From the NCBI RefSeq assembly GCF_021568795.1, contig NZ_JAKGUE010000013.1, positions 1 to 64,000 of the forward strand: 64,000 bases of DNA. Reading direction: 5' to 3'. The first letter of the stretch is position 1. Every line of letters begins with the position of its first letter. This stretch comes from Dethiosulfovibrio faecalis. GTDB taxonomy: Bacteria > Synergistota > Synergistia > Synergistales > Dethiosulfovibrionaceae. Of this stretch, positions 2,241 to 49,343 are shown piece by piece. The position numbers and the translations under genes are program-made. Below the pieces are notes generated by a model. That model did not search any database, was not told the origin of the DNA, and was given only the letters and a program-made list of their open reading frames with translations.

Positions 2241-2280
2241 GAGAGAGAGAGAGAGGGGGGCCTCTCTCTCTCTCTCGTTT
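2241..2280 (+). terminator. (GA)n hairpin terminator after the SPFH pair
   Basis: A perfect 16-bp stem made of GA repeats (2241-2256) and TC repeats (2261-2276) around a GGGG loop, followed by GTTTT. It ends rightward transcription of the SPFH genes and touches the stop of the convergent flavodoxin gene. Confidence 0.8.
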
Positions 2281-2774
2281 TATCTCATTTCCGTTCTAAG
2301 CTGGTCTAGCCAGGAGACGATCCTTCCCTCGGTAAGCTCCGGCTGATTCGTCTCGTCTATTGCCAGTCCGAGGAACTCCCCGTCTCTTATTGCCAGTTCT
2401 CCTCCCGAGTAACCCTCGGTAGAACGCTTGCCTATGACCTGGATGCCTTTGTCCGCTACGGCATCGTGGAGAAGCCCTAGGGCATCCACGAATGTGTCGC
2501 CGAAGCCCTCCTGATCTCCCGTTCCGAAGAAAGCTACCTTTTTTCCGGACAGATCGGCCTGTTCCAGCTTGGGAAGGTAGTCGTTCCAATCGTCCTGTAG
2601 CTCTCCCATCCCCCAGGTGGAGGATCCCAGAATTAGGACGTCATATCCGGTGACGGCCTCGTCCCCGGCGGATGCGACGTCGAAAAGGTCCGCTCCCAGA
2701 TCCTTGGCTATTTTTTCCGCGACCGCTTTCGTAGCTCCGGTGGTGCTACCATACAGTACACTTATAGTGGCCAT
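2280..2774 (-). CDS. fldA: Flavodoxin
   Basis: A 164-residue long-chain flavodoxin, a soluble FMN electron carrier that replaces ferredoxin when iron is short. The phosphate-binding loop GSTTGATKAVA follows the first strand near the N terminus. The Trp-containing loop SSTWGMGELQDDW and the Tyr/Asp region FFGTGDQEGFGDTF match the two isoalloxazine-contact loops of the family, and the roughly 20-residue long-chain insertion follows. A ribosome site (AGGAGGCG on the minus strand) precedes the ATG at 2774. It is divergent from the ferrous-iron uptake operon, and a GTTAG/CTAAC-like box lies just upstream at 2798-2813, so iron-responsive control is likely. Confidence 0.93.
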   Translation of the reverse strand: MATISVLYGSTTGATKAVAEKIAKDLGADLFDVASAGDEAVTGYDVLILGSSTWGMGELQDDWNDYLPKLEQADLSGKKVAFFGTGDQEGFGDTFVDALGLLHDAVADKGIQVIGKRSTEGYSGGELAIRDGEFLGLAIDETNQPELTEGRIVSWLDQLRTEMR

Positions 2775-2797: not shown

Positions 2798-2813
2798 GTT
2801 TGCTTATGCTAAC
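2798..2813. promoter_or_regulatory. Putative iron-regulator box at the flavodoxin promoter
   Basis: GTTTGCTTATGCTAAC is a 5-6-5 imperfect inverted repeat whose half-sites match nine of ten positions of the perfect box at 2910-2925. It lies 24-39 bases upstream of the flavodoxin ATG. The GTTAG/CTAAC halves resemble the core of DtxR/IdeR operators. Function is inferred. Confidence 0.45.
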
Positions 2814-2877
2814 AAAGCTTATCATGTCTAAGACAACTAGGCAAGGTGTCAGTCTTTTTTTATTGGCGAAAGAGGGC

Positions 2878-2925
2878 TTGACCTTTGTAAGATAGGGTGA
2901 TAAAGTCTCGTTAGTTAAGGCTAAC
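2878..2925 (+). promoter_or_regulatory. feo promoter with DtxR/IdeR-like operator
   Basis: A -35 TTGACC (2878-2883), 17-base spacer and -10 TAAAGT (2901-2906) point toward feoA. Immediately downstream, over the expected start of transcription, is the perfect 5-6-5 inverted repeat GTTAGTTAAGGCTAAC (2910-2925). The halves match the core of iron-dependent DtxR/IdeR operators, so repression by iron is the simplest reading. Confidence 0.6.
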
Positions 2926-2954
2926 AGAGCCTTATCGCCTGAAATTCATCCTCC

Positions 2955-2993
2955 AAGGGGAGGTCTTTCGACTTCCCCTTCCCCCAATTTTTT
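2955..2993 (+). promoter_or_regulatory. Hairpin in the feo leader, possible attenuator
   Basis: An 11-bp stem (2955-2965 with 2970-2980, one G-U pair, loop TTTC) is followed by a C run and six T's (2988-2993). It has terminator form but sits between the feo promoter and the feoA ribosome site, so it may cause premature termination. Confidence 0.5.
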
Positions 2994-3017
2994 GTCGCCT
3001 TTGGGAGGTGTCGTAAG

Positions 3018-3242
3018 ATGCAGAACTCTCGATCCATGTCGATCTGCCCTTCCGGAACGAAGGGTTTGGTGTTGGTGATCGACGGTGGTAACTGCATGAG
3101 AAATCGGTTGGCCGATATGGGAGTTTTCCCAGGGGCCCTGGTGGAAGTGCTAAGAAATGAGGGTGGCCCGGTTTTGCTCAAGGTCGGTAGTGGCCGACTG
3201 GCTTTAGGGAGGCAGATGGCAGAGAGGATAATGATCGCTTAA
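3018..3242 (+). CDS. feoA: FeoA-domain protein (first copy)
   Basis: A 74-residue SH3-like FeoA protein, cytoplasmic partner of the ferrous-iron permease FeoB. It shows the family pattern: a strand reading KGLVLVIDGG, then RNRLADMGVFPGALVEVLRN, then GGPVLLKVGSGRLALGRQMAERI. The ATG at 3018 is 8 bases after GGAGGT. It is the first gene after the feo promoter and is separated from the second feoA by a hairpin followed by a T run (3253-3276), so the two FeoA copies may be made in different amounts. Confidence 0.9.
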   Translation: MQNSRSMSICPSGTKGLVLVIDGGNCMRNRLADMGVFPGALVEVLRNEGGPVLLKVGSGRLALGRQMAERIMIA

Positions 3243-3252
3243 ACCCGAAACT

Positions 3253-3276
3253 ACCGGCGGAGTCGCCGGTTTTTTC
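3253..3276 (+). terminator. Intra-operon terminator between the two feoA copies
   Basis: Stem ACCGGCG/CGCCGGT (3253-3259, 3264-3270) with loop GAGT followed by a run of T's. It has standard intrinsic terminator form inside the feo operon, so partial termination after the first feoA is likely. Confidence 0.65.
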
Positions 3277-3329
3277 GGTCGTTTTTTTGAGTTAGATTAC
3301 AGCAACTTTGTTGGAACGGAGGTAACGCT

Positions 3330-3554
3330 GTGACTTTGGACGAGGTTAAGCCAGGAAGCACCGTTCGTCTGGTCCGTAACGGGGCCAGGGGTGTGGTGGG
3401 GCAGAGGCTTATGGATATGGGTTTTTTTAAGGGCGTAACCATCAAGGTGGTCCGGAATGCACCGCTTGTAGATCCGGTGGAGTTTCTCCTGGGAAGTCAG
3501 CACGTTACCGTAAGACATGCCGAGGCCGCCACGATAGAGGTCGAGCCGATATGA
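3330..3554 (+). CDS. feoA: FeoA-domain protein (second copy)
   Basis: A 74-residue FeoA protein with the usual order: SH3-like strand GSTVRLVRN, GARGVVGQRLMDMGFFKGVTI, and a closing PVEFLLGSQHVTVRHAEA strand pair. It starts with GTG at 3330, 7 bases after the ribosome site GGAGGT. Its TGA overlaps the feoB ATG in an ATGA junction, so it is translationally coupled to feoB and is the better candidate for the direct FeoB partner. Paired feoA genes before one feoB are known in several anaerobes. Confidence 0.9.
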   Translation: MTLDEVKPGSTVRLVRNGARGVVGQRLMDMGFFKGVTIKVVRNAPLVDPVEFLLGSQHVTVRHAEAATIEVEPI

Positions 3555-6034
3555 CGATCTCAAACACGGTAGTCGCTCTGGCCGGTCAGCCCAACTGCGG
3601 TAAATCGACCATCTTCAATATGTTGACAGGGGCCCGTCAGCACGTGGCCAACTATCCCGGAGTGACCGTGGACATAAAAAGAGGGAAGTATCGATTCCAG
3701 GATCGTTTCTTCGACGTGGTGGACCTTCCAGGAACCTACAGCCTAACGTCCTATTCCTCCGAGGAAATGGTCGCCCGGGACTTCATCCTGGATGGCGAGG
3801 CCGACGTCGTGGTGGGGGTCGTTGACGGCTCCAACCTTCGCAGAGGACTTTACCTTACGTTTCAGCTTTTGGAGATGGGAGCTCCGCTGGTAGTGGCTTT
3901 GAATATGGCGGACGTCGCCAGGTCCAAGGGGACTCCCGTCGACGTAGATGTCCTATCGAGAGAACTGGGGGTTCCCGTTCTGGAGACCGTCGGCAACAGA
4001 GGAATAGGCGGCAAGGAGCTTAAGAAGCAGCTTTTCTCGTTCCTATCAGCCGAGGGTAGATCTCCCTTTGTCGTGGATTACGGGCCTTTGGAGCCTTTGA
4101 TATCGGATCTTTCCGACGAGATGAAGTCCATCCCCGAAATATCCTTCCCAGCTAGGTGGTCGATCATAAAGCTTTTAGAGGGAGATTCCTCCGTCATTGA
4201 ACGGGTGGGAGCCTCCGGAGATAGAGGAAGAATCCTTTTGGAAAGGGTCTCTCGTTTGGGCGCTTCCTTCGAGGAGGAGCATGGGGACGATCCCAGGTCC
4301 CACATCGGTCTCTGCCGTCACCTGAGAGCGGAGGAGATAGAGTCTCGGTGCGTGAACGACAGATCCGCCGGCAAGGTGTCCTGGACGGACAGAATAGACT
4401 CTGTGGTGGTTCACAGGTTCGGCGGTCCCCTGATACTTCTGGCCGTTGTCTACGGGCTTTACGAGTTGGCGATAGTTCAGGGCTATAAGGCCACCGAGTA
4501 TCTGGTCCCTTGGCTCAGCCGTTTCGAGGCTTTGGTGTCCGGGTGGCTGCCTCCCGCCGGAGTGCTGGAGGAGCCTCTGGTTCGCTCCCTGGTGTTGAGC
4601 GTGGTGGCGGCGATTAACTCGGTTCTTATATACGTGCCTATATTCCTCATCCTTTTTGCGTCGATAGCCATTCTGGAGGACGTGGGGTATATGCCGAGGA
4701 TGGCCTTCATTCTCGACCGTCTGTTCCGTAAGTTCGGGCTTCACGGTCAGTCTACCCTGCCTCTGATACTTGGAGGGGTCTTCGTCGGAGGGTGTGCCGT
4801 CCCGGGCGTCATGGCTACCAGGGTCATAGCGGACGAGAAGGCTCGATTGGCCACCATACTGGTGGTTCCTCTGATGAACTGTATGGCCAAGATACCTCTC
4901 TACACTCTCTTGATAAGCGTTTTCTTCGCCGATCGCGGGGGGGCCATGATGGCCTTCATATCCACCATAACCATAATCTTCGGCCTGGCCGTGGCGAAGG
5001 TGCTGTCTTTAACGGTCCTGAAGGGGAAAGAGAGTTCGCCCTTCGTCATGGAGCTGCCCTCCTATCACAGGCCTACCGTGAGAGGTGTGCTCACCCGATC
5101 GGTCGAGAGGACCTGGCTTTTTCTGAAAAAAGTTGGAACCGTGGTCGTGGCGGTAGCTATATTGGTCTACTTCCTGATCAACTATCCCTCTCTGTCTCAG
5201 GAGCGTTACTCAACTTTTACCGAAAGGGCAGGCGAGCTCGTGGCTGGATTCCAGTCGAAGGTGGAGGGGACGTCCTACGAAAAACTTCTCGGAAGCGAGA
5301 GTGGAGTTATACGTCTTATCGACTACATGGAAAAGTTCAAGAGCGCCAGGATGTCCGGGCAGGACATTAACAGCCTGGACGCGAAGTTCAAGGCGATGGA
5401 TCCCGAGCTTTTCCCCTTGATAGATCGTTCTAATCGCTCGGACAAGGACGCTAAGAAGGTCAACAGGGCCTATAAGCTCTTCAGGAGAGACAGGGCCTTC
5501 CTGATGAAGGAGATGTCCGACGAGAGGACCAACGGTAGTTGGCTCGGACGTGCGGGAAAGGCCCTGGAGCCCGTCACCCGTTATGCCGGTTTCGATTGGA
5601 AGGTGAACGTGGCTCTGCTGAGCTCCCTTGCCGCCAAGGAAAGCAGCGTTGCTACCTTGGGGATGATATATCGTCCAGTCGACTCGGATCAGGGCTCTTT
5701 GGAGGAAGGCATAAAGAAAGAGGGAGGCATGACGCCTCTTCACGCTTTGGCACTGATGGTCTTCATGGCCCTCTATCCCCCCTGTGTGGCGACTTTGATA
5801 ATGGTCAAGGTTGAATCGGGAAGCTGGAAATGGGCCTTCTTTTCCTTGGGGTATCCGATAGTTCTGGGGCTTTTCTGCGCGTCACTGATATTTACAGTAG
5901 GCAGTAACTTGGGCCTGTCCGGGTTTACCGCGACCTGGGTCTTCTACGGCTGTGCCCTTTTAACGACATTTGCCCTCGGCCTCATCAATCCATCGAGTCG
6001 AGAGGCATCCATAGAGAAAGGGAAGGAGGTGTAA
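3551..6034 (+). CDS. feoB: Ferrous iron permease FeoB
   Basis: An 827-residue inner-membrane Fe(II) transporter. The N-terminal G domain has the P loop GQPNCGKST (about 13-21), G3 DLPGTYSLT and G4 NMAD. The helical GDI-like region follows, then the polytopic permease with the two Gate regions (GVFVGGCAVPGVMATR and a later AAKESSVATLG). A soluble insertion of roughly 130 charged residues (about 545-680) splits the second half of the membrane domain and explains the large size, as the usual length is about 650-770. It is coupled to feoA by ATGA. A small secreted-protein gene begins four bases after its stop codon. Confidence 0.95.
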   Translation: MTISNTVVALAGQPNCGKSTIFNMLTGARQHVANYPGVTVDIKRGKYRFQDRFFDVVDLPGTYSLTSYSSEEMVARDFILDGEADVVVGVVDGSNLRRGLYLTFQLLEMGAPLVVALNMADVARSKGTPVDVDVLSRELGVPVLETVGNRGIGGKELKKQLFSFLSAEGRSPFVVDYGPLEPLISDLSDEMKSIPEISFPARWSIIKLLEGDSSVIERVGASGDRGRILLERVSRLGASFEEEHGDDPRSHIGLCRHLRAEEIESRCVNDRSAGKVSWTDRIDSVVVHRFGGPLILLAVVYGLYELAIVQGYKATEYLVPWLSRFEALVSGWLPPAGVLEEPLVRSLVLSVVAAINSVLIYVPIFLILFASIAILEDVGYMPRMAFILDRLFRKFGLHGQSTLPLILGGVFVGGCAVPGVMATRVIADEKARLATILVVPLMNCMAKIPLYTLLISVFFADRGGAMMAFISTITIIFGLAVAKVLSLTVLKGKESSPFVMELPSYHRPTVRGVLTRSVERTWLFLKKVGTVVVAVAILVYFLINYPSLSQERYSTFTERAGELVAGFQSKVEGTSYEKLLGSESGVIRLIDYMEKFKSARMSGQDINSLDAKFKAMDPELFPLIDRSNRSDKDAKKVNRAYKLFRRDRAFLMKEMSDERTNGSWLGRAGKALEPVTRYAGFDWKVNVALLSSLAAKESSVATLGMIYRPVDSDQGSLEEGIKKEGGMTPLHALALMVFMALYPPCVATLIMVKVESGSWKWAFFSLGYPIVLGLFCASLIFTVGSNLGLSGFTATWVFYGCALLTTFALGLINPSSREASIEKGKEV

Positions 6035-6037
6035 TAC

Positions 6038-6355
6038 ATGAAGAGGAGAGTTATATTCGCTCTGGGAATGGCCCTGTGTCTGGCCTGGACCGTGGTCGCT
6101 TATGCTCATACCCCCATCTGCGCCTGTTACCTCAACGGCGACGGTACCGTTACCTGCGAGGGTGGTTTCTCCGACGGATCTTCCGCCGCCGGTGTCAAGA
6201 TGACGGTACGTACTCCCGATGGCGCTGTCATCCAGGAGGGAAAGATGGACGATCTCGGCGAGTTCACCTTCGATGTCCCCGAAGGGGATTACGAGGTTGA
6301 GTTCAACGCCGGACCTGGTCACGCGGTCTTGATAAAAGGTGAGGAAATACAGTAA
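6038..6355 (+). CDS. Small secreted protein of the feo operon
   Basis: A 105-residue protein with a clear signal peptide (Lys/Arg start, hydrophobic core, cleavage near VAYA-HT). The mature part begins with a Cys-rich stretch (CACYLNGDGTVTCEGG), then reads like one small beta-sandwich of the carboxypeptidase-regulatory or CNA-B type (GVKMTVRTPDGAV, GEFTFDVPEGDYEVEF). No enzyme motif is visible. It starts four bases after feoB and precedes a DUF4198 protein, so a periplasmic accessory role in metal handling is the natural inference. The three Cys and two His (HTP, GHAV) could bind metal, but this is not shown. Confidence 0.75.
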   Translation: MKRRVIFALGMALCLAWTVVAYAHTPICACYLNGDGTVTCEGGFSDGSSAAGVKMTVRTPDGAVIQEGKMDDLGEFTFDVPEGDYEVEFNAGPGHAVLIKGEEIQ

Positions 6356-6365
6356 GCCATGGACC

Positions 6366-6391
6366 CCGGGGTGCCTCGTCAGGCGCCCCGG
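6366..6391 (+). promoter_or_regulatory. GC-rich hairpin between the two secreted-protein genes
   Basis: An 11-bp stem (CCGGGG-T-GCCT with AGGC-G-CCCCGG, one wobble pair) and a CGTC loop lies between the stop at 6355 and the next ribosome site. No T run follows, so it is more likely an mRNA-processing or stability element than a terminator. Confidence 0.4.
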
Positions 6392-6415
6392 TTATCTCGA
6401 GAGGAGTGACTTTAT

Positions 6416-7216
6416 ATGAAGCGTAGCGGTGTTTTGGGGCTAGCCTGTGCCCTTATATGTTCCCTCAGCGTTCCGGCTTTTGCCCATTTTCAGATGGTAT
6501 ATACCCCTGAGAGCGCTCTGACCAAACCGGAGACCTTGAATCTCAAGCTTGTTTTTACCCATCCCTTCGAGGCGGGACACACCATGGACATGGACGGCGT
6601 GGACAGTTTCGTGATGGTTCATAAGGGCAAGAAGACCGATCTTACCAAGTCGGTCAAGCCCATAATGTGGACCAGTCTCACCAATTCCGGAAAGGGATAC
6701 GAGGCCGAGGTTCCCCTGAGAGGCATGGGAGACTTCGTCTTCGGTCTGGTCCCCATGCCCTACTTCGAGGCATCCGAGGGGATCTGGATGCAGCAGTGCA
6801 CCAAGATGGTAGTCAACGTCGCGGGGCTTCCCACCGACTGGAACGAGGAGATCGGCCTTCCCGCCGAGATAGTCCCTCTGGACAAGCCCTACGGTCTCTG
6901 GACCGGCAACGTCTTCCGCGGTGTGGTCAAGGCCAACGGAGAGCCCGTCCCCTTCGCCGAGATCGAGGTGGAGTATCTGAACCACCTTCCTATGCTGGAG
7001 GGTAATTCCTTCGCCGCCGAAGCAGCAGTGGAGGCCCCTCAGGATTGTTTCGTCACCCAGACCATCGTCGCCGATGCGAACGGTACATTCGTCTACGCCC
7101 TTCCCAAGGCCGGATGGTGGGGATTCGCCGCTCTCGGAGTGATAACCGAGGACTACAAGGGAGCCGAGCTCGGGAAGGATGCCGTCATCTGGGTCCAGGC
7201 CCGAGATATGAATTAG
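6416..7216 (+). CDS. DUF4198 family periplasmic protein
   Basis: A 266-residue exported protein of the DUF4198 group, found beside metal uptake systems in many anaerobes. A signal peptide (about 1-23, cleavage after PAFA) is followed by HFQMVYTPESAL, the typical opening that places a His right after the cleavage site, and by a beta-rich body with THPFEAGHTMDMDGV and a second domain (VFRGVVKANGEPVPFAEIEV) that looks like a carboxypeptidase-regulatory repeat. The ribosome site GAGAGGAGTG precedes the ATG at 6416. As the last secreted gene after feoAAB it probably helps bind or hand over metal outside the membrane; the exact ligand is unknown. Confidence 0.8.
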   Translation: MKRSGVLGLACALICSLSVPAFAHFQMVYTPESALTKPETLNLKLVFTHPFEAGHTMDMDGVDSFVMVHKGKKTDLTKSVKPIMWTSLTNSGKGYEAEVPLRGMGDFVFGLVPMPYFEASEGIWMQQCTKMVVNVAGLPTDWNEEIGLPAEIVPLDKPYGLWTGNVFRGVVKANGEPVPFAEIEVEYLNHLPMLEGNSFAAEAAVEAPQDCFVTQTIVADANGTFVYALPKAGWWGFAALGVITEDYKGAELGKDAVIWVQARDMN

Positions 7217-7318
7217 GCCCTGAGATCTCTGACAAAAAAGGCCGTCCCGTTATTCCTAGGGGCGGCTTTATGTTTTTGTAGCTCTTCCTCCGCCGAGGCG
7301 ATCGATCCTCCCAGGCTT

Positions 7319-8128
7319 ATGCTTAAAGAAGGGGGCAGGACCTTTCTTGGATTGGATGGCTCTCAGATCAGGAAAGCGTCGATCTGTCTATCCCCTTTGG
7401 TTGGGGGTGTCTTTTTATGGATATTTACCTTGAGGCGGAAGGTGGCCGGTCAGACAGAGGCCCTTACGGCCCAGTTGGACCGGAGCGAAAGGGCGGAGAG
7501 GGAGGTCATACGGCTCAACTCCGAGCTCCGAAGAACCCAGAGAGAGATAGCCTTCACCCTGGGCGAGGTGATAGAAAACAGGTCTAAGGAAACGGCCAAT
7601 CACGTTCGCAGGGTGGCCGCCATGGCCGAATCCCTTGCTTTGATGAGAGGTCTTACCGTGGAAGAGTCCAGAAGGATTGCCTTGGCTTCCTCCATGCACG
7701 ATATCGGAAAGATAGGCATACCCGATAGGATTTTATCGAAACCCGGTCCTCTCTCGGAAGAGGAATTCGAGCTCATGAAGGGGCATACCGTGCTGGGATA
7801 CGAGATATTGTCTCGTACAGGAGGCCCCCTATTCGGGATAGCGGCTCGGATAGCCCACGAACATCACGAGAGGTGGGACGGTAAGGGCTATCCCAAGGGA
7901 ATATCGGGAGAGGATATTTCGATGGAGGCCAGGATCGTGGCGATAGTAGACGTTTTCGACGCTCTATCTCATAAACGGGTTTACAAGGAAGCCTGGCCGA
8001 TTCAGAGGATACTGGACCTGATATCGGAGGAGAGGGGGTCTCATTTCGACCCGTCCTTGACGGATCTCTTTCTGTCGAATTTCTCCGTGTTCTCCGAGAT
8101 ATGCGATTCCATGCCGGATAGGACATGA
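7319..8128 (+). CDS. HD-GYP domain protein with apparently deleted sensor region
   Basis: A membrane protein with a C-terminal HD-GYP phosphodiesterase, the class that hydrolyses cyclic-di-GMP. From the ATG at 7319 it has one membrane segment (about 21-36), a coiled coil (about 45-85) and the HD-GYP domain with HDIGKIGIPD and HHERWDGKGYP, so catalytic residues look intact. The reading frame stays open upstream to the DUF4198 stop and encodes a signal-peptide-like stretch (7229-7300, ending SSSSAEA), but no ATG, GTG or TTG lies there. Relatives usually have a periplasmic binding domain between the signal peptide and this membrane segment, so that domain appears to have been lost. The start is therefore uncertain: ATG 7319 has no good ribosome site, and CTG 7229 is the alternative. 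Confidence 0.75.
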   Translation: MLKEGGRTFLGLDGSQIRKASICLSPLVGGVFLWIFTLRRKVAGQTEALTAQLDRSERAEREVIRLNSELRRTQREIAFTLGEVIENRSKETANHVRRVAAMAESLALMRGLTVEESRRIALASSMHDIGKIGIPDRILSKPGPLSEEEFELMKGHTVLGYEILSRTGGPLFGIAARIAHEHHERWDGKGYPKGISGEDISMEARIVAIVDVFDALSHKRVYKEAWPIQRILDLISEERGSHFDPSLTDLFLSNFSVFSEICDSMPDRT

Positions 8129-8141
8129 ACATCACGGAATA

Positions 8142-8177
8142 AAAGGGCAGCCCGGTTATAGTGCCGAGCTGCCCTTT
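8142..8177. terminator. Bidirectional terminator between HD-GYP and DUF2023 genes
   Basis: A 10-bp perfect stem AAAGGGCAGC/GCTGCCCTTT (8142-8151, 8168-8177) between convergent genes; the flanking A and T runs allow it to work in both directions. Confidence 0.75.
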
Positions 8178-8511
8178 AGCCTATAAGTTCCTCTCTGTCA
8201 GGTCTCTTTTTAAGGTATCTGGCACATTGTTTCATCCTGTCGTATCCTAGCATTATTCCGAGGATAAAATCCTGTTCGTCCGTAAGCTTGGATAGATCGG
8301 TCGTTCCGAAACGGCTGACCACGGCGATGCAGTCGGGATGTCCGAAAAACACGTTTATCCTGCCGTTGCCTATGGGGTGTATGACGTAGGGTATCCCGTG
8401 ATGGCTCAGTTTATGTTCGATCTGTCCTTTTTCTGAGATCGGAGCGGTGTGAAGTATCAGGTTTCTGAGTCCCTTCCAGTATTCGTAAACGTGATGACAG
8501 AAGATCTCCAT
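8176..8511 (-). CDS. DUF2023 family protein
   Basis: A 111-residue cytoplasmic protein matching the DUF2023 pattern: opening MEIFCHHVYEYWKGLRNLILHT, a middle reading GIPYVIHPIGNGRINVFFG, and a short helical C terminus with MLGYDRMKQCARYLKKR. The start at 8511 is set by GGAGGCG about 8 bases upstream; the frame is open further but without a comparable site. The family has no established activity; members are often found near flavodoxin or iron genes, and this one lies just beyond the feo operon and flavodoxin. Its promoter region carries a box resembling those at feo and flavodoxin, which supports an iron-related role by inference. Confidence 0.8.
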   Translation of the reverse strand: MEIFCHHVYEYWKGLRNLILHTAPISEKGQIEHKLSHHGIPYVIHPIGNGRINVFFGHPDCIAVVSRFGTTDLSKLTDEQDFILGIMLGYDRMKQCARYLKKRPDREELIG

Positions 8512-8541
8512 ATAAAACGCCTCCATGGGATAAATAGGAGG

Positions 8542-8673
8542 AGCCCGGGGGGAACCGGGCTCCAGCATTGAGAGGGGGAATTTGACATCATGTCAGGAAA
8601 GAACGGAAGGGGAGTTCGTTCTTTCTAACTTCCTGACTGGCCATAGGATACATCCGTTTGTTCGTCTTGTCAA
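8542..8673 (-). promoter_or_regulatory. DUF2023 promoter and structured leader
   Basis: On the minus strand a -35 TTGACA (8668-8673), 17-base spacer and -10 TATCCT (8645-8650) precede a leader of about 125 bases. Within it GTTAGAAAGAACGAAC (8614-8629) has the same 5-6-5 layout as the feo operator with one half-site mismatch. The leader can form a stem of 14 pairs with a 7-base bulge (about 8592-8637) and a perfect 9-bp GGAGCCCGG/CCGGGCTCC hairpin (8542-8566) just before the ribosome site. Confidence 0.55.
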
Positions 8674-19778: not shown

Positions 19779-20315
19779 TCATCTTTCTCCGTGTCTCTCC
19801 CTGTAGCAGGGAAGGCAATAGACCTCTCCATCCATGTTTCTGGTCATGGATTCCATGGTTCCCTCGCCGCATCCGGCACAGATAAGGGTGTTCTCCCTGA
19901 ACGCCTTCGGGGGAAGTTCCTCCCTCGGCGCCCCTAATTTAAAGAGCTCTTCCAAAGGGGCCTCCAGCAGATAGAGCCTGTATTCCTCCCTGTCCATCTC
20001 CCTGTTTAGGTTCGGTCTCAGGACCATCCTGATTCCCTTGCCGTCTCTACGTCGGTAGAAGGTGAAGGCCACCTTCCCGTAGTGATGGAGTACGAGGTTT
20101 CCTTTTCCCAGGGTGCAGTTAGTCATGTGCTGGATGGCGTCGATTCCGCACATATCGGTCTCGGATATGCATACCAGTTCCTCGTCTCCGTCGCCTTCTC
20201 CCAACTCCTTCAAAGCCAGTTCAGAAGCCCTTATCCCTATGGCCAGTCCAGGACACCGATGGCCGTGAAACCTCTCTACCTCGTCGTATTTGTTCGCTTT
20301 TTTGTCCTTATTCAA
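19779..20315 (-). CDS. FmdE family protein with C-terminal zinc ribbon
   Basis: A 178-residue protein of the FmdE family (formylmethanofuran dehydrogenase subunit E-like). The N-terminal domain has FHGHRCPGLAIGIRA, then CISETDMCGIDAIQHMTNCT and GKGNLVLHHYGKVAFTFYRR, a nearly perfect match to the family. The C terminus has a four-Cys zinc ribbon (CAGCG and CLPCY). TTG at 20315 lies 8 bases after GGGGAGGGG and is the preferred start; the open frame reaches 20384 without a ribosome site. No methanofuran pathway is present, so a metal-binding or molybdenum/tungsten-enzyme accessory role is inferred. It is divergent from a secreted tandem FmdE-like protein. Confidence 0.85.
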   Translation of the reverse strand: MNKDKKANKYDEVERFHGHRCPGLAIGIRASELALKELGEGDGDEELVCISETDMCGIDAIQHMTNCTLGKGNLVLHHYGKVAFTFYRRRDGKGIRMVLRPNLNREMDREEYRLYLLEAPLEELFKLGAPREELPPKAFRENTLICAGCGEGTMESMTRNMDGEVYCLPCYRERHGER

Positions 20316-20404: not shown

Positions 20405-20434
20405 TTGACCGTAGCGATGGAACAGGTGTATCCT
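20405..20434 (+). promoter_or_regulatory. Promoter of the secreted FmdE-like gene
   Basis: -35 TTGACC (20405-20410), 18-base spacer, -10 TATCCT (20429-20434). Flanking ACCTGT and ACAGGT form a spaced inverted repeat around the -35, which could be an operator. Confidence 0.5.
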
Positions 20435-20491
20435 GCCGGTGGAGTTAGCATCACAAAACTAAGTTTTATAAAACGAGAGGAGCAGTGTGTG

Positions 20492-21805
20492 ATGAAGCGA
20501 GTTTTGCGTTTTTCCCTTTTTGCCTTGGTCGTCGCTTTAGTGGCGACCTCGGTCTTTTCTCTGGAGGTGTCTACTGCCTTCGCCTGGTCCGCCGAAAGTG
20601 ACGATAAAGAATTCTCTTATCTCCTAAGGGATGGTTCTCTTTCCTGTATAGCCGAGAAAGGCACGGTAAAGACTTTTTCCATGGCCGAGTCCTGCATGGA
20701 AGGAGAGGGCGATTCCCGCCACGCTTGTCTGTGCATGGCCATGGCCTATAGGGTGGCTCAGATAGTTTCGGGGGCCTGGAGCGACGGATTTTTCCATCCC
20801 GAGGACGTCATGGTTGCTACGGGATGGAACTCCGATGGAGCGGAGGAGCTTTTCTGCGATCTCCTTGGTGTGGATTCCGTGACCTACGGTGTGGACGGTT
20901 CTGTCACGAAACCCGGTGATATGACCCTTTTGGACTGTTGGTATAGAATCTCAATAAAATCGCTGGGTAAAACCTTTACCTTTAGGGGGACAGAGAAGAT
21001 TTTGACGGAGGATTTCCTGACCCTCAGACGTAAGGTAAAAGGAGGCGGAGGAACCGATGAGGAGAAAAAAGTCCTTGCCGCCAAGAAGATGGTGCTCTGG
21101 AACTCCATTCAGGAGAATCCTTTCGACGGGGGGTTTGAGGTGCGAGAATCAGAAACTGCAAGATGTCTCTGCGATGTCGTTCCTACCTCTACCCTTTACT
21201 ACGTTCTCTCCGACGATGTGGTGAGGAGCATGGATCTTCCCGATGCGGCTAAAGAGGATAACGGTTCAGGAGGAACCAAGATCTGCCTATGTCAGACAGT
21301 GGCCTTCAGGGTATCCCAAATGGTGTCCTCCAGTTGGTCCGACGGGATATTCCATCCCGAGGACATCTCCGTGGAGACCGGCTGGAATACCGATGGTCCC
21401 TTAGAGTTCTGGGTAGGCCAGATGGGCATGAGCTCCGAGGACGTAGTCATATCCAGTTCCGCCACCTCTGGAGACAGGCTCTCTCTGGCGGACTGCTGGT
21501 ACAAGGTGACGATAAAGTCTACCGGAGAGACCTACGTCGTCCGAGGGACCTCGGACCTTTACGTCTCGGACTTTCTAGCTCTTCGTGCTCTCTTCAAACA
21601 AGGGAAAGCTACGGATGAACAGACGAAGAGGATGAAAGAGCTAAGGGCGAAGACGGTGAATAATATCTGTTGTTCTCCCTTTGTCGCTAAGTTTTCGTCG
21701 GAAAGGCAAGAATCTAAAAAGGTAGGCTCCAGTGGCTGTTCCGTTTCTCCTTTCTCAGTCGTCTCCTTGGTTCTGTTGGCTCCTCTGGTTGCCCTCCGTA
21801 GGTAA
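20492..21805 (+). CDS. Secreted tandem FmdE-like protein with Synerg-CTERM-type tail
   Basis: A 437-residue exported protein. A signal peptide (about 1-30, ending STAFA) is followed by two copies of a domain of about 180 residues. The copies align at CLCMAMAYRVAQ/CLCQTVAFRVSQ, WSDGFFHPED/WSDGIFHPED, TGWNSDG/TGWNTDG and LLDCWYRISIKS/LADCWYKVTIKS. The opening resembles the HGHxCPG region of FmdE but the first His and the Pro are not kept in the second copy. The C terminus has Gly/Ser, one Cys, a hydrophobic stretch and a final Arg pair, the form of the Synerg-CTERM surface-sorting signal. The ATG at 20492 follows AGGAG by 9 bases. Ligand unknown; it is head-to-head with a cytoplasmic FmdE gene. 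Confidence 0.75.
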   Translation: MKRVLRFSLFALVVALVATSVFSLEVSTAFAWSAESDDKEFSYLLRDGSLSCIAEKGTVKTFSMAESCMEGEGDSRHACLCMAMAYRVAQIVSGAWSDGFFHPEDVMVATGWNSDGAEELFCDLLGVDSVTYGVDGSVTKPGDMTLLDCWYRISIKSLGKTFTFRGTEKILTEDFLTLRRKVKGGGGTDEEKKVLAAKKMVLWNSIQENPFDGGFEVRESETARCLCDVVPTSTLYYVLSDDVVRSMDLPDAAKEDNGSGGTKICLCQTVAFRVSQMVSSSWSDGIFHPEDISVETGWNTDGPLEFWVGQMGMSSEDVVISSSATSGDRLSLADCWYKVTIKSTGETYVVRGTSDLYVSDFLALRALFKQGKATDEQTKRMKELRAKTVNNICCSPFVAKFSSERQESKKVGSSGCSVSPFSVVSLVLLAPLVALRR

Positions 21806-24342: not shown

Positions 24343-24371
24343 ATTGTACTACGGAATGTTAGAATGAGCAA
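24343..24371 (-). promoter_or_regulatory. Promoter of the NitT/TauT-type importer
   Basis: On the minus strand -35 TTGCTC (24366-24371), 17-base spacer, -10 TACAAT (24343-24348), followed by a leader of about 30 bases to the GTG at 24303. The -35 touches the preceding terminator palindrome. Confidence 0.6.
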
Positions 24372-24411
24372 ACGTAAGGCTCCGTCGATATATCGACGGA
24401 GCCTTACGTTT
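24370..24411 (-). terminator. Perfect 21-bp palindromic terminator after the FKBP gene
   Basis: A loopless 42-base perfect palindrome beginning AAACGTAAGGCTCCG. It lies just after the FKBP stop codon (minus strand). Confidence 0.8.
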
Positions 24412-49169: not shown

Positions 49170-49243
49170 GGGTGAGTCCTCCTCTATATGATGTTGCCGG
49201 AGGAGGGAAGATCCGCCTTTTGAGAGGGGGTGTGATAGAAAGG

Positions 49244-49337
49244 AGCAACTTCCCTGCGCCGGCATGATCCGGATCAGGTTCCAGGGGTCGAGGCTTAACG
49301 CCTCCTCTCAGCCGGGACACCGACTCCCCCAGTTCCA
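49244..49337 (-). ncRNA. TPP riboswitch (THI element)
   Basis: On the minus strand the conserved pieces appear in order: GGCTGAGA, a variable P3 arm, ACCTGATCCGGATCATGCC and CGCAGGGAAG. These are the pyrimidine- and pyrophosphate-sensing parts of the TPP aptamer. It is followed by a CTCCTC that could pair with the thiT ribosome site GAGGAG, which suggests translational control; no terminator is seen between. Confidence 0.95.
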
Positions 49338-49343
49338 ACACAA

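Follow-up and report, generated by a model that had tools for sequence, protein, structure and literature searches.

A conserved TTAG-N6-CTAA box links the feo, flavodoxin and DUF2023 promoters of a Dethiosulfovibrio-like bacterium and points to a probable DtxR-type iron regulon

In the first 64,000 bp of contig NZ_JAKGUE010000013.1 (positions 1-64,000, hereafter the window) from the genome of a Dethiosulfovibrio-like bacterium (G000), a flavodoxin gene, the feo iron-uptake genes and a gene coding for a DUF2023 protein lie near one another in separate transcription units. The initial annotation had reported three boxes of the GTTAG-N6-CTAAC type with 5-6-5 spacing and had proposed one DtxR/IdeR-like regulator common to these genes. 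A pattern search of the window located all three boxes where they had been placed (Table 1), the feo box being indeed perfect and lying directly after the promoter, 3 nt past the -10 hexamer TAAAGT, and the flavodoxin and DUF2023 boxes carrying one mismatch each, as claimed. The flavodoxin box begins 2 nt past its -10 hexamer TAAGCT, and the DUF2023 box 15 nt past TATCCT, within the transcribed leader. We interpret the boxes as operator sites for a repressor that responds to metal, most probably the only DtxR-family protein of G000 acting as an Fe(II) sensor, a reading to which we assign a probability of roughly 0.8.

The evidence carrying this reading comes from the orthologous promoters of relatives, in which the boxes were tested against shuffled sequences. 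At feo, each of the six genus genomes compared has a perfect box (shuffle P ≤0.003). One of them is G006, in which FeoB is only 65% identical, the lowest value in the genus set, and in which the box, GTTAGGTGGAGCTAACCTAA, approaches the complete DtxR 19-mer. The flavodoxin box is kept as RTTWG-N6-CWAAY in 6/6 genus genomes and is present in four genera (g1, g2 represented by G007, g3 and g7), with the form GTTAG-N6-CTAAC in g3, GTTAGTGCATGGTAAC in G007 and GTTTG-N6-CAAAC in g7. All seven genus genomes examined for DUF2023 have its box, with a single mismatch in every case; the DUF2023 promoter of one sister genus (G007) carries a perfect box and that of all six genomes of another, g3, ATTAG-N6-CTAAT; in g3 the flavodoxin and DUF2023 genes are divergent, and each has its own box. 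In several genera the box is found at the same place, just after the -10 hexamer. The comparison of the three promoters among relatives, suggested with the original proposal, thus found the boxes kept at considerable divergence.

The same box was found at further promoters. A fourth site of the window, absent from the initial annotation, has one mismatch and lies at an ABC operon of the NitT/TauT type, and the related operon of G004 has a box, GTTTGACGGAGCTAAT, in the same place. Another, degenerate and decayed site, downstream of the promoter of a gene for a 466-aa protein for which no Pfam match was obtained, corresponds to a perfect box in G004, GTTAGTATAAACTAAC. Boxes also occur at the promoters of a DUF4198 gene (G004, and with one mismatch G000), an FmdE-linked gene pair (G004), a ZinT-like gene and a FecB-like binding protein (both G006). 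Elsewhere in G000 (L358, G000:C5:84500-94300), the box GTTTGATATGCCAAAC stands at the promoter of an operon coding for NifH-like and nitrogenase-component-1-like (NifDK-like) proteins, a FecB-like binding protein, a FecCD permease and an ATPase, so that a nif-like system is here joined with metal uptake. In G018, from a different family of the same order, the DtxR gene itself is immediately preceded by a perfect box, and GTTTG-N6-CTAAC occurs twice close to the feo genes (boxes in L084 at 656, 765 and 1877), which suggests autoregulation in another family.

The half-sites had been said to match the DtxR/IdeR core, and they do so, because the published DtxR consensus TTAGGTTAGCCTAACCTAA (PMC7762939) contains TTAG-N6-CTAA twice, as two overlapping units; a single unit would then be the expected target of a single dimer. 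Only one DtxR-family protein is encoded in G000 (one PF02742 match). It consists of PF01325 (Fe_dep_repress), PF02742 (Fe_dep_repr_C) and FeoA domains, aligns with the DtxR/IdeR structures and possesses the Cys-x-x-Glu-His metal motif, as read from the alignment; of the residues expected of an Fe(II) sensor (Met10, Cys102, Glu105, His106), the first is replaced by Asp. The proposal of one DtxR/IdeR-like regulator common to feo, flavodoxin and DUF2023 is therefore supported, at the level of comparative sequence analysis, by conservation, gene linkage and the consensus, and the shared operators, most likely those of a DtxR-type iron repressor, would join these genes with further metal genes. That the binding protein is DtxR rather than Fur, its co-repressor Fe(II) and the regulation negative is inferred. 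With ample iron, a dimer of the repressor would occupy TTAG-N6-CTAA beside the -10 hexamer and start site and block transcription; as iron falls, the repressor would leave, the Feo importer, DUF2023 and further metal-uptake genes would be made, and flavodoxin would replace ferredoxin.

Such a regulon would resemble the DtxR/IdeR/DmdR1 regulons of Actinobacteria (PMC7762939; for DmdR1 sites, PMC7174319) in the TTAG-N6-CTAA half-unit, its promoter-proximal position, the iron-uptake targets and a DtxR-family protein whose C-terminal domain is of the FeoA type. Unlike the two overlapping units of actinobacterial sites, most of the boxes described here consist of one unit, the G006 feo box coming nearest to the 19-mer, and the targets include flavodoxin, DUF2023 and the nif-like/FecBCD operon. 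In a literature search, no DtxR regulon was found for the phylum Synergistota, for which a testable iron regulon is hereby proposed; it would be of a known kind.

Gene linkage points in the same direction. The DUF2023 protein, a member of a family without a function, scores 131 bits against PF09633 (cut-off 27) and is homologous to PG1857 (PDB 2GUK). Among 80 DUF2023 loci, fetched at 6 kb each from Bacteroidota, Spirochaetes, Gastranaerophilales, Thermodesulfobacteriota, ANME and Methanosarcinales archaea and other lineages and surveyed without a Fur query, flavodoxin was found near DUF2023 in 46, mostly adjacent, feoB in 16 and a DtxR-like gene likewise in 16. In G017 and G026 DUF2023 directly follows feoB, and in G017 a long DtxR gene precedes them; other Synergistota (L150, L166, L190) likewise have long DtxR genes ahead of feoA-feoB-DUF2023. 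A short DtxR-family gene lies directly behind flavodoxin in G008 (g3), and the Pyramidobacter loci L134, L136 and L171 have the same gene order. The flavodoxin-DUF2023 genes of Bacteroidetes (PG1857-1858, BT0516-0517) were reported to be induced 48- to 598-fold under iron starvation (PMC10434189). Given this linkage to flavodoxin and feoB across phyla and this induction, DUF2023 is probably an iron-limitation gene, and a partner of flavodoxin would be a natural guess. A family with a structure but no function is thereby connected with iron limitation and flavodoxin across a wide range of bacteria and archaea. Flavodoxin and DUF2023 thus go together here as in Bacteroidetes; in contrast to the single operon there, for which no box or regulator is named in the part of PMC10434189 drawn upon, they form separate transcription units with a common box.

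Table 1 Features of the window related to the boxes
Feature	Position	Strand	Details or basis
Flavodoxin gene (PF00258)	2280..2774	-	Profile match
Flavodoxin box GTTTGCTTATGCTAAC (as listed by coordinates; GTTAGCATAAGCAAAC on the - strand)	2798..2813	-	1 mismatch
Flavodoxin promoter TTGCCT-N17-TAAGCT	-10 at 2821-2816	-	Hexamers read from sequence
feo promoter TTGACC (2878-2883), N17, TAAAGT (2901-2906)	2878..2906	+	Hexamers read from sequence
feo box GTTAGTTAAGGCTAAC, perfect	2910..2925	+	3 nt past -10; pattern search and conservation
feoA leader: conserved GCCTGAAATTCATCCTCC (about 2937-2954), stem-loop 2955-2980, T-run	2926..3017	+	
feoA 3018-3242, second feoA 3330-3554, feoB 3551-6034	3018..6034	+	
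DUF2023 gene (PF09633), ATG at 8511	8176..8511	-	Profile match
Conserved DUF2023 leader RNA (model R1)	8528..8638	-	About 100 nt
R1 parts: hairpin 1, C-rich loop, linker AATTCCCCCTCTC, hairpin 2	8637-8592, 8616-8606, 8582-8570, 8563-8540	-	
DUF2023 box GTTAGAAAGAACGAAC (GTTCGTTCTTTCTAAC as listed by coordinates)	8614..8629	-	1 mismatch
DUF2023 promoter TTGACA (8673-8668), N17, TATCCT (8650-8645)	8645..8673	-	Hexamers read from sequence
FmdE-like gene	19779..20315	-	Divergent from 466-aa protein gene
466-aa protein gene	20405..21805	+	
Degenerate box GTTAGCATCACAAAAC	20444..20459	+	Downstream of promoter of 466-aa protein gene
Fourth box GTTTGCTCATTCTAAC	24358..24373	-	1 mismatch; over -35/spacer of NitT/TauT-type ABC operon (24303 to 21863)

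Several observations weigh against this reading and are taken here together with the explanations that they favour. The first concerns the DUF2023 box of G000, which overlaps an RNA structure and makes up the 5' portion of a strong stem-loop. How well the box is conserved within the genus can therefore not be ascribed solely to operator function. The leader in question, R1, is 87-95% identical among G000, G004 and G006, as against 71-74% for the DUF2023 gene and 41-45% for its third codon positions. Its first hairpin is capped by a C-rich loop of 11 nt and interrupted by a bulge of 7 nt, in which the GTTAG of the box lies; a single-stranded C-rich stretch, AATTCCCCCTCTCAATGC, separates it from a GC-rich second hairpin with one compensatory pair change. 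The structure drawn by hand agrees with that predicted by RNAalifold, and of 200 shuffled versions of the G000 leader, 199 fold less well than the leader itself. One pair covaries, but with only four distinct sequences covariation is not decisive. According to a covariance-model search of the genomes, the leader is confined to this genus and occurs once per genome, always at DUF2023, with no second copies. An 18-codon reading frame just after the -10 hexamer in G000 was rejected as a leader peptide, as it is broken by TAG in G002-G004 and has no ATG in G006.

The DUF2023 site of this genus may accordingly be no operator but a conserved part of the leader stem-loop, with control exerted through RNA, either by attenuation or by a derived small RNA (sRNA). 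Apart from the excess of leader over gene conservation and the location of GTTAG in a bulge, its distance of 15 nt from the -10 hexamer, against 3 nt for feo and 2 nt for flavodoxin, speaks for this. The two invariant parts of the box, however, flank variable bases that an operator would tolerate, and sister genera without the leader RNA have a clean box at the same promoter, and we regard this explanation of the one site as unlikely. On the preferred reading, an operator at DUF2023 would in this genus additionally have become part of a conserved leader RNA.

It is also conceivable, though distinctly improbable, that the boxes are operators of a Fur-family protein or of a DtxR-family protein sensing manganese. 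The position of DtxR Met10 is occupied by Asp in the G000 protein, as read from the alignment; Asp is the residue of MntR at this position, so that the sequence would allow either iron or manganese. Three Fur-family genes are also present in the genome, and the boxes before the ZinT-like, FmdE and NitT/TauT-type genes are ambiguous as to the metal. The Fur box, however, is AT-rich and unlike TTAG-N6-CTAA. The latter fits the DtxR/IdeR consensus (PMC7762939), the linked genes (feo, flavodoxin, FecBCD) are iron genes, and DtxR genes, in the survey made without a Fur query, are found in DUF2023, flavodoxin and feo neighbourhoods, all of which speaks against these alternatives.

The remaining points concern the number and distribution of boxes, for which pattern searches of the genome and chosen stretches of sequence were used. 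No excess was found: the 2.67-Mb genome has 19 sites with at most one mismatch compared to 21 for the reversed pattern, and the window has 14 sites with at most two mismatches compared to 15.7 expected. The degenerate pattern RTTWG-N6-CWAAY gave 9, 13 and 13 sites in three genomes of the genus against 8, 11 and 6 for the respective controls, the lowest count (9 versus 8) being that of G000. Several matches fall within coding sequences or at non-iron genes, and those in coding sequences (e.g. L312, L331, L336, L119, L120) were set aside as chance. Among relatives, a box is missing from the feo promoters of g3 (4 mismatches) and weak at the feo promoter of G007. The DtxR gene of G000 (C17, about 50.4 kb) is not situated beside the boxes, and none was found in the piece searched for it. 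The sites are nevertheless clustered, with three of the 19 inside 5.9 kb (Poisson probability about 1e-5, or about 2e-4 once the free choice of window is corrected for) and four inside the 64-kb window (about 1e-3), which is unlikely to be due to chance. Conservation in the orthologous promoters of relatives is stronger evidence than this clustering. A last alternative, that AT-rich palindromes have arisen by chance close to promoters, would fit raw counts like those of shuffled and reversed controls. It is very improbable and already contradicted by the conservation of the boxes at promoters across several genera, for which shuffle P is mostly ≤0.003, besides the clustering and the constant position past the -10 hexamer at feo and flavodoxin.

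The leader RNA is the part of the system that could prove new. No Rfam model matched the feo or DUF2023 leader at the gathering score, so a known riboswitch was dropped and only a new type would remain. A tentative suggestion, which we consider doubtful, is that R1 is a DtxR-controlled iron-sparing RNA, an independently arisen counterpart of RyhB, FsrA and IsrR in Synergistota, the two C-rich stretches of which would pair with the Shine-Dalgarno sequences of Fe-S enzyme mRNAs. IsrR of Staphylococcus, the C-rich loops of which block ribosome-binding sites (PMC9410917), and FsrA of Bacillus (PMC12871923) are iron-sparing sRNAs, and R1 as predicted would share with IsrR a probably iron-linked promoter, a stem-loop with a C-rich loop, a second single-stranded C-rich stretch, a terminal hairpin, and stems conserved in sequence with little covariation. 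The likeness to IsrR and FsrA is one of layout, with no sequence homology shown and with targets that are predicted here; unlike both, R1 is the leader of a protein gene, is expected to be under DtxR rather than Fur control, and has a final hairpin without a strong U-run.

The evidence for targets is at most suggestive. When G004 was searched for complements, eight candidate sites coincided with ribosome-binding positions, and the genes concerned were Fe-S or ferredoxin-linked in five cases; the number for G000 was none or one. In orthologue checks the predicted pairing was kept for a POR-type gene and not for HGD-D (1/2); the kept pairing has an energy of -20.3 kcal/mol, a value also reached by 2 of 50 genes of the window. 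The ribosome-binding sites of this genome are G-rich, and reasonably good pairing with them is to be had from any C-rich RNA. With few sites in G000, one of two orthologues and such general pairing, trans targets are not claimed. Control of DUF2023 in cis is an alternative role for the leader. If the iron-sparing role were true, a leader RNA made under iron scarcity would link the sparing of iron, exerted in trans, with expression of DUF2023 in cis, and a new regulator of this type would lie outside the groups with known such RNAs.

The feo leader of G000 gave no Rfam match up to an E value of 5. The feo leader of the window (2937-2980, + strand) and the feo leaders in L035, L036, L037 and L038 have in common a C-rich motif of the TCATCCTCC type followed by a hairpin, which is U-tailed in G000, G017 and G026. 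The DUF2023 leader of G007 (L020), unrelated to R1, combines the perfect box with a C-rich CACCCCTCC motif and a terminator-like hairpin with a U6 tail ahead of the DUF2023 start codon. Taken together, this leader and the common motif of the feo leaders suggest that leader control may be general in the regulon. Elsewhere in the window, a TPP riboswitch (RF00059, 75.8 bits) is found at 49234-49340 on the - strand.

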